A DNA stretch of 38,962 nt, taken from positions 1 to 38,962 of the forward strand of contig MFTY01000002.1 of the NCBI GenBank assembly GCA_001785515.1. Reading direction: 5' to 3'. The stretch's first letter is position 1. The number at the start of each line of letters is the position of its first letter. Below are positions 4,372-34,472 of the stretch, in pieces. Origin of the DNA: Candidatus Nomurabacteria bacterium RIFCSPHIGHO2_02_FULL_35_13 (lineage in GTDB: Bacteria; Patescibacteriota; Minisyncoccia; Phycocordibacterales; UBA9973). The translations under genes were made by a program, and so were the position numbers. The notes under the pieces are model-generated. The model saw only the letters and a program-made list of their open reading frames with translations, was not told the origin of the DNA and searched no databases.

Positions 4372-4374
4372 GTG

Positions 4375-4503
4375 TTTAAAAAATCTAAAAAATATGCACT
4401 TTTTCCGGGTACGGATTTTTTGAAGCTTAAAAAATCCTGAAGTTTTCGCGCCGTCGCGCTCAAAACCCCCTACAAAAGTCATATTTTATAGATTTTTTTA
4501 AAT
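4375..4503. repeat. Structured repeat family 1, copy B
   Basis: Arms 4375-4404 and 4474-4503 are inverted copies of each other with a few mismatches and are unrelated to the arms of other copies. The core has the same hairpin b as copies A, C, D and F. In hairpin a the outer stem is TTT/AAA instead of TTC/GAA. The right arm ends about 2 bp from the rny stop codon. Confidence 0.9.
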
Positions 4504-6844: not shown

Positions 6845-6873
6845 ATTATAGCAGAAATCAGTTGTTTTGTAAA
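6845..6873 (-). promoter_or_regulatory. clpP promoter, leaderless type
   Basis: On the minus strand TTTACA (6868-6873), a 17-bp spacer, TATAAT (6845-6850), then 6 nt to the ATG. Transcription should start at or next to the start codon. The -35 box touches the outer arm of repeat copy C. Confidence 0.75.
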
Positions 6874-6998
6874 AATAAAAAATAAAGAATGATATTTTTG
6901 CCGGTACGGATTTTTTGAAGCTTAAAAAATCCTGAAATTCTCGCGCCGTCGCGCTTGAAACCCCTTAAAAACATCATTCTTTGTTTTTTATTGATTTT
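6869..6998. repeat. Structured repeat family 1, copy C
   Basis: Left arm 6869-6899 and right arm 6967-6998 are inverted copies with few mismatches. The right arm contains the last codons and stop of tig (minus strand stop at 6988-6990), so the left arm is an inverted copy of a coding 3' end. The core is nearly identical to copies A, D and F. Confidence 0.9.
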
Positions 6999-8117: not shown

Positions 8118-8236
8118 AAAATAAAGACCAAAAGTAAGTTTTTAAGGGGTTTCAAGCGCGACGGCGCAAGAATTTCAGGATTTTTTAAGCTTCAAAAAAT
8201 CCGTACCGGCAAAAATTTACTTTTAGTCTTTATTTC
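8118..8236. repeat. Structured repeat family 1, copy D
   Basis: Arms 8118-8143 and 8211-8236 are near-perfect inverted copies. The core is in the orientation opposite to A-C, reading AAGGGGTTTC, GCGC-GACG-GCGC, then the AAGCTT-loop hairpin. It lies between tig and the small membrane protein at 8247, antisense to both. Confidence 0.9.
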
Positions 8237-12558: not shown

Positions 12559-12567
12559 GTTTTTTTA

Positions 12568-12661
12568 AATTATGAAAATTAAAAAATTTAAAGCGTCGTG
12601 GGTTCCCTGTCCTTTTGTCCCCGAGGGCGAAGGCGCCAAAATTTTTTGAATTTTAATAATT
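12568..12661. repeat. Structured repeat family 2, upstream of nusA
   Basis: Inverted AT-rich arms (12568-12594 and 12635-12661, a few mismatches) enclose a core that on the minus strand reads GCCTTCGCCCTCGGGGACA, then AGGACAGGGAACCCACGACG. The same core occurs at 27174-27223 and 34406-34452 with different arms. Confidence 0.85.
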
Positions 12662-17553: not shown

Positions 17554-17587
17554 GCAAGACCAGTAAGACTTTAATAAGAAAAGACTT

Positions 17588-17614
17588 AACTAGCAAGGAC
17601 TGTCCTTGCTAGTT
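17588..17614. repeat. Left palindrome of the RAYT cassette
   Basis: A 27-nt palindrome with 13-bp arms around a single T; the half-site is AACTAGCAAGGAC. The inner 23 nt are identical to the palindrome at the right end of the transposase gene (18321-18343). Confidence 0.92.
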
Positions 17615-17626
17615 GAACTACAAGTT

Positions 17627-17640
17627 GATATAATTTAACA
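17627..17640 (+). promoter_or_regulatory. RAYT promoter, extended -10, leaderless type
   Basis: TGaTATAAT (TATAAT at 17629-17634), 6 nt before the ATG at 17641 and 13 bp after the left palindrome. Confidence 0.7.
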
Positions 17641-18324
17641 ATGCAAAGGAAAGATCCATTTGTAGTTGGTGAGTGTTATCATGTCTATAATCGTGGTATT
17701 GATAAAAGAGTCATTTTTAAATCTATTTACGATTATCAGCGTTTTATAATGCTTTTATATATAGCGAATAGTCAAGATCCGATTCATCTTGATAATCTTA
17801 TAAATAAAAATCATAAAAATTATCAAGAAATTTTTGATACAGAACGTGGTAAGTCATTGGTATCAATCGGTGCATGGTCTTTAATGACTAATCATTTTCA
17901 TATTATTTTACGCGAAGAAGTAGAAAGTGGAATAAGTAAATTTATGAAAAAATTTGGTACTGGATATTCAATGTATTTCAATATTAAGTATCAACGTACT
18001 GGTGGACTTTTTGGTGGACCATTTAAGTCAAAACATATTTTAGAAGATTTACACTTAAAGCATTTATTTGGATATGTTCATCTAAATCCACTTGATATTA
18101 AATTTTCTGGTTGGGAAAAATTGATTGACAAAAAACAACCAAAAGAATGGAAAGATTTTTTAGAAGATTATTTATATTCAAGTTATCAGGATTATACTTG
18201 GACAGAACGAAAGGAAGCGAAAATTTTGAATAAAAATGCCTTCCCTAATTATTTTTCAGAAGAAGATTCCTTTGAAGATTTTATTGATAACTATTTGTCG
18301 TTTAATCCAGATAACCTCCACTAG
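17641..18324 (+). CDS. REP-associated tyrosine transposase (RAYT, Y1/HUH family)
   Basis: The 227-residue Y1 transposase (IS200-like fold) starts with FVVGECYHVYNRGIDKRVIF and has the HUH metal motif H85-F-H87 (MTNHFHIIL). Candidate catalytic tyrosines are Y109 or Y112 in the following helix (GTGYSMYFN), followed by the conserved LFGGPFKSKHI block. RAYTs are domesticated single-strand transposases that process REP palindromes. The gene is flanked by two identical 23-nt palindromic cores, and the right one overlaps its stop codon. All catalytic features appear intact. It interrupts the stretch between surface protein genes and the pilus operon. It is the only transposase-type gene in the window and so the best candidate to act on the many palindromic repeats. 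Confidence 0.93.
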   Translation: MQRKDPFVVGECYHVYNRGIDKRVIFKSIYDYQRFIMLLYIANSQDPIHLDNLINKNHKNYQEIFDTERGKSLVSIGAWSLMTNHFHIILREEVESGISKFMKKFGTGYSMYFNIKYQRTGGLFGGPFKSKHILEDLHLKHLFGYVHLNPLDIKFSGWEKLIDKKQPKEWKDFLEDYLYSSYQDYTWTERKEAKILNKNAFPNYFSEEDSFEDFIDNYLSFNPDNLH

Positions 18325-18351
18325 CAAGGACTGTCCTTGCTAGTGGAGGTT
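18313..18351. repeat. Right palindrome of the RAYT cassette, arms extended into the gene end
   Basis: A perfect 39-nt palindrome (19-bp arms, central T). The inner 23 nt equal the left palindrome. The outer 8 bp (AACCTCCA, mirrored by TGGAGGTT) are the last codons of the transposase gene and their inverted copy. The TAG stop lies in the conserved part. Confidence 0.9.
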
Positions 18352-26540: not shown

Positions 26541-26675
26541 GAATTGCAAAAATTGTTGAAGGCATATCTTTTTTAGGGGGTTTGGCGAGCGACGGCGAGC
26601 CAACTTCAGAACTTTTTAAGCTTCAAAAAGTTCGTACCCTAGAAAAAGATATGCCGAGAAAGATTTTTGTAATTC
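26541..26675. repeat. Structured repeat family 1, copy E (covarying copy)
   Basis: Inverted arms 26541-26574 and 26641-26675 are the longest of the family. Hairpin b is GAACTTTTT/AAAAAGTTC instead of GGATTTTTT/AAAAAATCC: two pairs changed, both compensated, loop kept. Hairpin a is TTGGC-GA-GC-GACG-GC-GA-GCCAA, again re-paired with new sequence. It separates the divergent hit and recJ promoters. Confidence 0.92.
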
Positions 26676-26692: not shown

Positions 26693-28438
26693 ATGCAACA
26701 ATACTCGGAACTACTCCGAACGATTTTGGAAAAAAGAGGTATAAGAAATCTGGCTGAAGCTGAGATTTTTTTGAATCCCGATTATGAACGTGATTTATAT
26801 GACCCGTTTGAAATGAAAGATATGGAAAAAGCTTGTGTTAAGCTTTTTGAGGTAATAGAAAATAAGGAGAAGATAGTTATATATGCCGATTATGATTGCG
26901 ACGGCATTCCTGGAGCGGTTATCTTGCAGGATTTATTTAAAAAGATAGGCTATTCAAATTATGAGATTTATATTCCGGGGAGAAACTCAGAAGGTTACGG
27001 ACTTAATCTTTCTGCTATAAAACAATTTGCTCAAAAAAGAGTGAAACTTTTGATAACCATTGACCTTGGTATTACAGCAGTTTCTGAAATTGCACAAGCG
27101 GAAATAGATGGAATTGATGTGATTATCACCGACCACCACTTACCAAAACAGAAAGTTCAGGATGTAAAAAATTCTCCCGCCTTCGCCCTCGGAGACATAA
27201 GTCCAGGGGACCCACGGCTCCTTAATTTTTTACATCCTGAACTTTCTTTGCCGAAAGCTTATGCAATTTTAAATCCAAAAGTTGATAATTACCCTGAAAA
27301 AATATTATGTGGCGCCGGAGTAGTATTCAAATTAGTACAAGGATTTATAAAAAAATACGGAGAATTCTATAAAATAAATACTGGTTGGGAAAAATGGTTG
27401 CTGGATATGGCAGGTTTGGCTACACTTTCAGACCTTGTTCCTCTTGTGGGTGAAAATAGAGCCATGGCATATTTTGGAATAAAGGTTTTAAAAAAATCTC
27501 CTCGCCCTGGTGTGCAAAAACTTCTGTCTAAAATGAAAATTAACCCAAAATACCTGACAGAAGACGATATTGGTTTTATGATAACACCCAGACTCAATGC
27601 AGCATCGCGAATGGATAACCCTATGATGGCATACGAGCTTCTTTCTACGGAAGATGAAGTAAGAGCAGGAGTGATTGCAGACCACTTATCTAAAATAAAT
27701 GATGATAGAAAAACAATGGTCGCCGGTATTATGCGTGAAGTTAATAAAAAATTTGAAAAACGAGAAACTAAGAAAGTTATTGTTATAGGTAATCCCAAAT
27801 GGCGTGTGGGTGTATTGGGACTTGTAGCCAGCAAAATATCAGATGAATACAAAAAACCCGTTTTTGTCTGGGGTAAAGATGAAAATGATATTATAAAAGG
27901 TTCTTGTAGAAGCGATGGGTCAGTATCTCTTGTTGAGCTTATGACTGAAACTAATGAATTTTTTTTAGAATTTGGTGGACACGAATTTGCCGGTGGATTT
28001 ACGGTTCATAGCGAAAAGATCCATTTTTTGGAAGAAGCCCTTTCTCTTTCTTTTAACAAAGTGAAGCGTGATAAAACAGAAAACGAGATAATTTTTGATA
28101 TAAAATCTGATTTGAGTATGGTGAATATGAAAAATTGGCGTGAAATAGAAAAACTTGCTCCCTTTGGGCTAGCTAATCCCAAACCAATTTTTCTTTTTGA
28201 AAACGTGAATATAGAGAATATTAAAAAATTTGGCAAGAACGGGTCAGGGGAACATTTAGAAATTACTTTTTCAGATATAAGTAAAAATAAAGTTAAAGCA
28301 ATTTCTTTTTTCTCTAGCAGTGAATCTTTTAAAGTTCCATTATCAGAAAACATAAAAGTAAATCTTCTCGCAACTTTTGATTTATCCAGATTCAAAGGTA
28401 GAGAAGAGCTAAGACTTAGAATAATTGATATAATATAA
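26693..28438 (+). CDS. recJ: Single-strand-specific exonuclease RecJ
   Basis: The 581-residue DHH-superfamily 5'-3' ssDNA exonuclease has motif I ADYDCDG at 65-71, a further Asp in ITIDLGI (121-127), DHH at 147-149, the DHHA1 domain with SCRSDGSVSLVEL and EFGGHEFAGGF, and a C-terminal OB-like domain (about 460-581). RecJ acts in recombination repair, mismatch repair and processing of transformed DNA. Directly after DHHLP is an insertion of about 30 residues (about 153-186, including SPAFALGDISPGDPRLL). It is encoded by a family 2 repeat with perfect 24-bp inverted arms; in other RecJ proteins the chain goes quickly on to AILNPK. The reading frame is kept. rnhA follows after 7 bp. Confidence 0.95.
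   Translation: MQQYSELLRTILEKRGIRNLAEAEIFLNPDYERDLYDPFEMKDMEKACVKLFEVIENKEKIVIYADYDCDGIPGAVILQDLFKKIGYSNYEIYIPGRNSEGYGLNLSAIKQFAQKRVKLLITIDLGITAVSEIAQAEIDGIDVIITDHHLPKQKVQDVKNSPAFALGDISPGDPRLLNFLHPELSLPKAYAILNPKVDNYPEKILCGAGVVFKLVQGFIKKYGEFYKINTGWEKWLLDMAGLATLSDLVPLVGENRAMAYFGIKVLKKSPRPGVQKLLSKMKINPKYLTEDDIGFMITPRLNAASRMDNPMMAYELLSTEDEVRAGVIADHLSKINDDRKTMVAGIMREVNKKFEKRETKKVIVIGNPKWRVGVLGLVASKISDEYKKPVFVWGKDENDIIKGSCRSDGSVSLVELMTETNEFFLEFGGHEFAGGFTVHSEKIHFLEEALSLSFNKVKRDKTENEIIFDIKSDLSMVNMKNWREIEKLAPFGLANPKPIFLFENVNIENIKKFGKNGSGEHLEITFSDISKNKVKAISFFSSSESFKVPLSENIKVNLLATFDLSRFKGREELRLRIIDII
27150..27247. repeat. Structured repeat family 2, inside recJ
   Basis: Arms 27150-27173 and 27224-27247 are perfect 24-bp inverted repeats. 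The 50-bp core starts CTCCCGCCTTCGCCCTCGG and ends CAGGGGACCCACGGCTCCTT, matching the copies at 12568 and 34386. It is fully translated as part of RecJ. Confidence 0.93.
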
Positions 28439-28930: not shown

Positions 28931-30409
28931 ATGCAGGATAGAGTTTTTTATACAACCTGTTTTGGTTTTATAATTGGAGTGCTTTTGCGTTCTTTTATTT
29001 TTATAAATTTATATTTTACTCTTTTGTTTCTAGTAATTTCTTTCGCATTTATTATATTTTTTATTTTTATTTCAAAAAATAAGTGGGGTATTATAGTTTC
29101 CGTTTTTATTTTAGTGTTTTTCATTGGAATTTTTCGTTTTTACATGGTTGATGTTTCCGCGCCTAGTGTTTTTGAATCTCATGTTGGTGAAAAAGTTTCT
29201 TTATCTGGGAAAATTATAGATGAGCCAAATATTGCGGAAAATAATCAGAAATTAACCGTGGAAATACAAGATGGAAAAAATAAAACAGAAATTTTAATGT
29301 CAGCAAATTTAAGTGAAGATTATAAATATGGAGACAATATAAATTTCGAAGGTATTTTAAAAAAGCCGGAAAATTTTATAACAGACCAAGGCAAGGAATT
29401 TGATTATATAAATTATTTACGAAAAGATGGAATTTTTTATATAATAAATTACCCAAAAATCGAAGTAATATCGCATGGAAATGGGAATTTTATAAAAAGT
29501 GCGTTATTTTACGCTAAAGAAATTTTTTTAAATAAAATAAATTTAGCAATTAGGGAACCGGAATCATTACTTATGAGTGGTCTTATTTTAGGCGAAAAAT
29601 CATCCTTTGATGAATCTCTAAGACAAAGTTTTGTGGATACAGGCACGATACATATCGTTGCGCTTTCCGGATACAATGTGACAATCGTTGCTGAATGGAT
29701 TATGAAATTTTTTTCTTCTTTTCCTAAAAATATAGGAATTGGTGCCGGCATATTTGCCATCTTGCTTTTTGTTTTAATGACTGGCGGGTCTTCAACAGCA
29801 GTGCGAGCGGGGATAATGGCAAGTCTAGCCTTATTTGCCCGTCTAATAGGCAGAAATTATGATGTCACGCGGGCACTAATACTCGCCGGTGTAGTTATGG
29901 TTTTAATAAACCCTTTTGTTCTCGTTTTTGATGTTTCCTTTCAACTTTCTTTTATAGCTACCGTGGCAGTTATCTTTTTTTCGCCTAAAATTGAAAAATA
30001 TTTTTTATGGGTTACGCCCCGTTTGGGATTGCGAGATATCGTATCAGTTACTTGCGCGGCTTATATTTTTGTTATGCCTTTTATTCTTTATAAGATGGGT
30101 AATCTTTCTTTAGTAGCGTTGCCCGCAAATGTATTAATTCTGCCTTTCATTCCGCCTACCATGATTTTAGGTTTTTTGACTGGTTTTGCTGGAGTTATTT
30201 GGTATGTTCCGGCAATTATATTGGGGTACATCTCATATTTTTTTCTTCACTATGAGCTTGCTGTCATAAGTTTTTTCTCCAACATACCATTTGCCGCATT
30301 AACTATACCTAATTTCCCGTTTATTTTTACACTGCTAATCTATCTCTATTTTATTTACAGACTTTTTGGGAAAAGCATAAAAAAATTTTTCTCAGAAACT
30401 CAAGAATAA
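28931..30409 (+). CDS. comEC: ComEC N-terminal half: DNA-uptake membrane channel
   Basis: The 492-residue protein matches the first part of ComEC/Rec2: a few N-terminal membrane helices (about 5-75), an extracellular OB-like DUF4131 domain (about 85-160, VGEKVSLSGKIIDEPN), and the Competence domain with about seven helices (about 210-480, including VALSGYNVTIVAEWIMKFF). It transports single-stranded DNA across the membrane. The metallo-beta-lactamase-like domain normally fused at the C-terminus is absent; it is encoded separately at 31113. The last codons and stop (FSETQE) form the left arm of repeat copy F. It follows rnhA by 5 bp. Confidence 0.9.
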   Translation: MQDRVFYTTCFGFIIGVLLRSFIFINLYFTLLFLVISFAFIIFFIFISKNKWGIIVSVFILVFFIGIFRFYMVDVSAPSVFESHVGEKVSLSGKIIDEPNIAENNQKLTVEIQDGKNKTEILMSANLSEDYKYGDNINFEGILKKPENFITDQGKEFDYINYLRKDGIFYIINYPKIEVISHGNGNFIKSALFYAKEIFLNKINLAIREPESLLMSGLILGEKSSFDESLRQSFVDTGTIHIVALSGYNVTIVAEWIMKFFSSFPKNIGIGAGIFAILLFVLMTGGSSTAVRAGIMASLALFARLIGRNYDVTRALILAGVVMVLINPFVLVFDVSFQLSFIATVAVIFFSPKIEKYFLWVTPRLGLRDIVSVTCAAYIFVMPFILYKMGNLSLVALPANVLILPFIPPTMILGFLTGFAGVIWYVPAIILGYISYFFLHYELAVISFFSNIPFAALTIPNFPFIFTLLIYLYFIYRLFGKSIKKFFSETQE

Positions 30410-30506
30410 TGTTTTTAAGGGGTTTCGAGCGCGACGGCGCGAGAATTTCAGGATTTTTTAAGCTTCAAAAAATCCGTACCGGCAAAAATATTATTCTTGA
30501 GTTTCT
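30394..30506. repeat. Structured repeat family 1, copy F
   Basis: Arms 30394-30416 and 30484-30506 match at 22 of 23 positions. The left arm includes the last five codons and stop of comEC; the right arm ends 1 bp before the sodA stop (minus strand, 30508-30510). The core is nearly identical to copy D. With convergent genes either side, the hairpin could act as a bidirectional terminator here. Confidence 0.92.
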
Positions 30507-34385: not shown

Positions 34386-34472
34386 ATGCTCTGGTAAAGA
34401 ATTTTTGAGCCTTCGCCCTCGGAGTCATAAGGACAGGGAACCCACGACTCTTAAAATTCTTTACCAGAGCAT
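34386..34472. repeat. Structured repeat family 2, between dut and argS
   Basis: Perfect 20-bp inverted arms (34386-34405, ATGCTCTGGTAAAGAATTTT, and 34453-34472). The core reads GAGCCTTCGCCCTCGGAG, then ACAGGGAACCCACGACTC, so GAG/CTC closes it. The frame of argS is open through most of it, but its product does not resemble ArgS. Confidence 0.92.

Follow-up and report, generated by a model that had tools for sequence, protein, structure and literature searches.

Organization of the recJ locus

The window, by which we mean the whole 38,962-nt stretch of DNA analyzed here, comes from a 554-kb draft genome of a Candidatus Nomurabacteria bacterium and carries recJ, within which lies a 98-nt hairpin (27150–27247) made of perfect 24-bp arms and a 50-nt core (Table 1). 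The arm ends are genuine, the next pair outward and the next pair inward each being C/T. Folded as single-stranded DNA, the hairpin reached −27.3 kcal/mol, compared with a mean of −10.2 for shuffled sequences (z = −7.0; 0 of 200 shuffles equal), and in a scan of 548.6 kb of the genome it was, with a stem score of 24, joint strongest among the hairpins lying inside ORFs. That scan returned 82 hairpins with a score of at least 14, whereas a Markov-2 random genome gave 6. Rfam models had zero matches in the window. A search of the arm sequence through its own genome yielded no second occurrence, ruling out that the recJ arms were taken from another copy there.

Table 1. Coordinates of recJ, the parts of its hairpin and further copies of the repeat family in the window.
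Feature	Position	Strand	Basis or remark
recJ, host gene, 581 aa, ssDNA-specific 5′-3′ exonuclease family	26693..28438	+	Pfam DHH, DHHA1, RecJ_OB; PDB RecJ 8y30, E = 2.8e-73; top Foldseek matches are RecJ
DHH motif codons (D147 H148 H149)	27131..27139	+	Translation and RecJ alignment
Left arm of recJ hairpin, 24 nt, AGAAAGTTCAGGATGTAAAAAATT	27150..27173	+	Empty-site comparison leaves AGAAA, the first ~5 nt, as possibly native
Core/loop of recJ hairpin, 50 nt	27174..27223	+	Family signature GCCTTCGCCCTCGGAG...CAGGGGACCCACG; translates as ..SPAFALGDISPGDPRLL..
Right arm of recJ hairpin, 24 nt	27224..27247	+	Exact reverse complement of left arm
Inferred inserted DNA in recJ, 93 nt = 31 codons	27155..27247	+	Length difference from empty relatives L032, L035, L038–L047
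Predicted peptide of RecJ insert, NSPAFALGDISPGDPR			
Second family copy, intergenic, upstream of argS	34386..34472	+	Own, different perfect 20-bp arms
Third family copy, intergenic	12565..12660 (core 12582–12635)	-	Different AT-rich arms

The insert begins about 4–5 codons past those of the DHH motif, and of the six frames across it the sole one open throughout is that of recJ. The DHH, DHHA1, and RecJ_OB domains are all retained in the insert-bearing protein. An AlphaFold model of RecJ (23 sequences) was poor overall, and the fold that it predicted matched RecJ in the PDB by Foldseek. Against a mean pLDDT of 59, insert residues 151–185 scored below 50 and residues 142–149 and 191 onward were clearly better; in this model, the insert is likely a disordered loop.

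Empty sites and the size of the insertion

We compared the spacing between the DHH(L/I)P and LP(R/K)A motifs across 23 aligned RecJ sequences of the genus and found that it is exactly 3 residues in 11 of them and 34 in this genome. Relative to the empty-site relatives, RecJ has therefore gained 31 residues (93 nt). The inserted DNA is 5 nt shorter than the palindrome, meaning that neither arm can be native beyond ~5 nt. This rules out that the arms are plain inverted copies of the recJ flank, and the overlap of the palindrome with ~5 native nucleotides leaves the register of the insert uncertain by a few nucleotides. Solved RecJ chains in the PDB align on both sides of the insert and skip residues 150–184, which, together with the empty relatives, leads us to reject a native extension of RecJ. 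We looked for a target-site duplication at recJ and found none that was clear. An orthologous insert is present in recJ of an independent assembly, G022, whose RecJ is 85% identical.

These comparisons bear out much of a first-pass annotation made from the window, which had described exact 24-bp arms around a 50-nt core in the open recJ frame and about 30 residues added without breaking the gene. That annotation had named conservation of the same residues in distant RecJ proteins as what would speak against an insertion, and both the solved chains and the same-genus relatives with empty sites lack them. Its expectation that one of the two arms would prove native failed.

A dispersed repeat family read in one frame

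The core gave 22 BLAST matches in its own genome; across the genus (Ca. Nomurabacteria, Patescibacteria), 28 of 80 genomes have it, and matches to the core pattern fell almost exclusively in Nomurabacteria/Patescibacteria records. We gathered 96 distinct copies of the family and counted a copy as intragenic if it lay inside a gene with 70 or more open codons on each side (n = 35; others, n = 61). Members lie in-frame in recJ, rsmH, pheT, cca, mnmA, glcD, uvrC, ligA, polA, and others across the genus, so that the recJ insert is one of many.

Nearly all intragenic copies (33 of 35) are read in one frame, ..N(S/F)(P/G)AFALGD... Antisense frame 0 is about equally open, in 30 of the 35, which rules out that stop codons alone impose the bias. 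Of the 61 non-intragenic copies, just 19 have an open AFALGD frame, and GAC (Asp) marks the intragenic copies while GTC (Val) is found mostly in the rest (Fisher p = 5e-11). Among same-genus relatives, full-length matches to recJ, cca, mnmA, and glcD were reported free of stop codons. Frame use, the GAC bias, and the open frames suggest that the copies are translated and that selection favors a peptide that does no harm; from sequence, translation of the recJ insert should add 31 residues to the protein, probably disordered ones. The earlier picture of a mobile palindrome turned into protein sequence beside an active site is thus borne out as far as the dispersed family, its absence from most RecJ proteins, and its in-frame position by the DHH motif are concerned; its mobility and translation are what we infer from these patterns.

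Two half-elements are still in-frame, one in rsmH of G004 (L126; ..KDFGAFALGDIS followed by GII..) and one in mnmA of G027 (L235; VKQGTHSSLNSSN..), and both are apparently in-frame deletion remnants of the recJ-type core. Of the two intergenic copies in the window, the one upstream of argS is open in-frame (34405–34470) from an upstream TTG (SLRPRSHKDREPTT). Automatic annotation may here give argS a false N-terminal extension, and the same applies at gene starts in several other genomes.

The window also holds other palindromes. One, CCTGCCCGCAATGCTTCGCATAGCGATGCAGGCGGG, lies at 855–892, in-frame in a ComM/YifB-like Mg-chelatase gene (325–1905) where it gives KPARNASHSDAGGEN, and has a second copy at 2417–2454. 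Another family of ~105 bp (core ..GGGGTTTCGAGCGCGACGGCGCGAGAATTTCAGGATTTTTTAAGCTTCAAAAAATCCGTACC..) is mainly intergenic, has copy-specific outer arms, and occurs at 191–305, 4373–4487, 6868–6982, 8123–8231, 26542–26675, and 30396–30504.

Host loops are insertion hotspots

The RecJ loop is used by several repeat families. In other relatives it contains a short GC-rich repeat, which by eye looks like the window's 11290/33907 family, or a longer unrelated palindrome, and the recJ-type core is found there in G022 and G021. On a RecJ tree from which the loop was left out, loop state changes 11 times, compared with 10.6 times for shuffled labels. G006, the closest relative, has an empty site and nests with two insert-bearing genomes (86/88 support), suggesting clean loss or replacement.

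A single site in glcD behaves similarly: three genomes have native 6-residue loops, and elsewhere we found inserts of several core families with stems mostly of 13–24 bp. Of the 21 inserts of 60 nt or more that we scanned at this site, 20 had strong stems. Loop state changes 17 times on the glcD tree (18.4 shuffled), and, for the recJ-type core, well-supported branches alone require 5 changes or more. Differing inserts at one site likewise occur in mnmA, cca, pheT, and rsmH. Host loops are hotspots: at the same codons, palindromic families unrelated to one another are gained and lost without phylogenetic inertia.

In mnmA, a single loop between ATGHYA and KGxDPSKDQSYFL (L213–L242) is filled in nearly every best-matching genome; the inserts there come from at least a dozen palindromic families that are unrelated, and some are nested (L222, L242). 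The rsmH gene of G018 (L125) carries an in-frame element of another kind, CCCGTTAGAAGC...GCTTCTAACGGG, flanked by a direct repeat, ATTGAT, that resembles what a 6-bp target duplication would leave.

Locus-specific arms with mirrored substitutions

Pairing between the two arms of the same copy averaged 7.2, compared with 0.34 for left and right arms drawn from different copies, and 64 of 93 copies exceeded the 99th percentile of this cross-copy null. Apart from a semi-conserved AT-rich inner part, the arms vary between copies. Between the orthologous recJ inserts of G000 and G022, the left arm differs at 4 positions and the right at 5, and 4/4 and 4/5 of these coincide (P ~6e-6 if the changes were independent), altering amino acids on both sides. 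In cca, arms are homologous in five genomes, pairs of which show as many as 4 mirrored changes, with two intermediates altered in one arm only; by eye, the glcD sisters L262 and L265 also show mirrored changes. The evidence for mirroring thus comes from a few orthologous sets, those of recJ, cca, and glcD. Since orthologous copies have acquired mirrored substitutions, their arms were kept matched after insertion; perfect arms are no clock, and a perfect inverted repeat should be read with caution, as it gives no evidence of recency. Here we depart from the first-pass annotation, which had seen in the perfect arms a sign of a recent event.

A probable palindromic repeat tolerated in proteins

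We put at roughly 70% the probability that the recJ insert belongs to a palindromic repeat of Nomurabacteria that proteins tolerate and that resembles in kind the palindromic elements of Rickettsia, with arms homogenized by template switching or quasipalindrome correction, a reading that would entail its mobility and translation. In such an element, locus-specific outer arms would enclose a core of ~50 nt that is conserved and bears AT-rich inner arms; the recJ copy would occupy a loop, short and variable, that links the DHH motif to the strand after it. The element would spread, and would survive in genes only within loops and in the frame that yields a harmless peptide. Replication across the hairpin would copy one arm onto its partner, so that a mutation in a single arm is mirrored even where amino acids change, and the insert could later be lost cleanly.

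How far the arms derive from the host is best seen in rsmH. That of G014 (L128) has a bare 20-bp hairpin, GTTTTGGGAGCCGAGCTCCC-ATTT-GGGAGTTCGGCTCCCAAAAC, in which the left arm is native gene sequence (the DKVLGxE segment) and the right arm repeats it in inverted form; this hairpin is likely a raw product of template switching. Less certainly, the right arm in rsmH of the present genome terminates in an inverted copy of native TCAAAAAGTA, and for mnmA both halves of the outermost CAAG/CTTG pair are possibly native. Overall, arms reach into the native flank clearly in L128, probably in L123 and L124, and ambiguously elsewhere. We entertain, as less likely than not, a bolder form of the main reading, in which only the loop core is mobile and inherited, the arms being written anew from host sequence at every site and kept perfect by template switching, so that the element would rewrite flanking host codons on both sides.

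The inverted flank in rsmH would also fit an integration that makes an inverted copy of its target, with arms that are locus-specific for that reason and perfect because the copies are young, as would the differences in arms among copies and the absence of the recJ arm elsewhere in its genome. We nevertheless think this unlikely, as the recJ arms overlap just ~5 native nucleotides and as mirrored divergence after insertion is seen among orthologous copies, both in recJ (G000/G022) and in several cca genes.

It is improbable that selection on an RNA or DNA hairpin, acting through mRNA stability, pausing, or a structure needed for mobility, keeps the arms complementary by compensatory mutations. 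Compensatory-looking changes are real, and the stem is kept in nearly all copies; an RNA stem should, however, allow G-U pairs. The outer arms are 94% Watson-Crick paired, and among their mismatches, counted on the sense strand, G-T (16) is not commoner than A-C (22), indicating that pairing in the mRNA is not what is kept and arguing against selection on mRNA structure. An apparent excess of A-C over all arm pairs came from the conserved inner arm, and the outer arms did not show it. The amino acid changes in RecJ also argue against selection on a hairpin, as do the freedom of the arm sequence to vary and the unrelated nature of the host genes.

We likewise give a low probability to the cores being swappable cassettes that enter the loops of resident hairpins, the arms then belonging to the site. 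Many cores with similar inner arms (AAAAATT/AATTTTT) do occur at the same sites, and the mnmA-B site holds different cores between similar outer arms. Across genomes, however, the outer 10 nt of the arms show a likeness of 0.25–0.33, which is chance level, at glcD, mnmA-A, cca, and pheT (0.37 for four recJ inserts), and sister genomes with different cores have no clearly shared arms. Finally, native RecJ sequence, an assembly error, or an insert removed from the RNA is very improbable and has nothing specific in its favor, since other RecJ proteins are without the insert, the independent assembly G022 has it, and an insert that is removed or bypassed would not need the stop-free inserts and near-single frame use that we observed.

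The dozens of filled and empty orthologous sites amount to a natural experiment on selfish DNA becoming protein sequence. The locus-specific, mirrored arms make it testable whether template switching or selection is the keeper of perfect long hairpins.

Comparison with known systems

The elements do not resemble MITEs: from copy to copy the outer arms differ in sequence, and neither recJ nor the family as a whole shows a clear target-site duplication. Nor did we see a transposition event, an excision product, or a mobilizing enzyme. REP/REPIN sequences, which are associated with RAYT (Y1_Tnp) genes, are also short, many-copy palindromes, and the window has a RAYT gene. RAYT genes were found in 55 of 80 genomes of the genus; a search for Y1_Tnp in the core-bearing genomes G022 (9 copies), G090, G071, G080, and G083 gave no match, an absence that is not absolute in drafts. 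Co-occurrence does not support a dependence of the recJ-type core on RAYT. The RAYT-type gene of the window (17641–18324) has the palindrome CTAGCAAGGACTGTCCTTGCTAG on both sides (17570–18347), a typical REP/RAYT layout, and this palindrome is unrelated to the recJ core.

Template switching, or quasipalindrome mutation, is known to make hairpins, homogenize their arms, mirror substitutions, and alter amino acids (Monttinen and Löytynoja, 2022, PMC8794818; for yeast coding genes, PMC8604942). Those cases concern ordinary inverted repeats, whereas here a dispersed repeat family lies within conserved proteins. Perfect inverted repeats also occur in functional protein genes of Nematomorpha mitochondria, where template switching has been named as a possible cause (PMC6649704). 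Unlike the Nomurabacteria elements, the nematomorph palindromes have arms that code for conserved protein and involve no inserted repeat family.

Our literature search for such elements in Patescibacteria found none. Rickettsia palindromic elements (RPEs) were reportedly described by Ogata et al. in 2000 and 2002. RPEs are palindromes of ~100–150 bp that occur between genes and in-frame in conserved genes, encode a conserved peptide, and may be represented by the same or different groups at orthologous sites (PMC10969869, PMC2229807, PMC3767692); in Rickettsia gmk, the host protein is made and active with its RPE insert (PMC2229807). The recJ element is likewise a stem-loop with terminal inverted repeats, its 98 nt falling slightly below the ~105–150 bp of RPEs (PMC2229807), and its family shares with RPEs an in-frame position in unrelated conserved genes, a single peptide frame (33/35), and different groups at shared loci. 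It differs in belonging to a distant phylum, in having perfect outer arms that are locus-specific and change in step, with only the core shared, and in its very fast turnover at the same codons. In-frame palindromic elements are known, in the literature that we read, mainly from Rickettsia and Wolbachia, and the set in Patescibacteria is independent and very active. By analogy of layout and frame, not of sequence, the palindromic elements of Rickettsia and Wolbachia are the closest known kind, and we call the Nomurabacteria element RPE-like, not an RPE.
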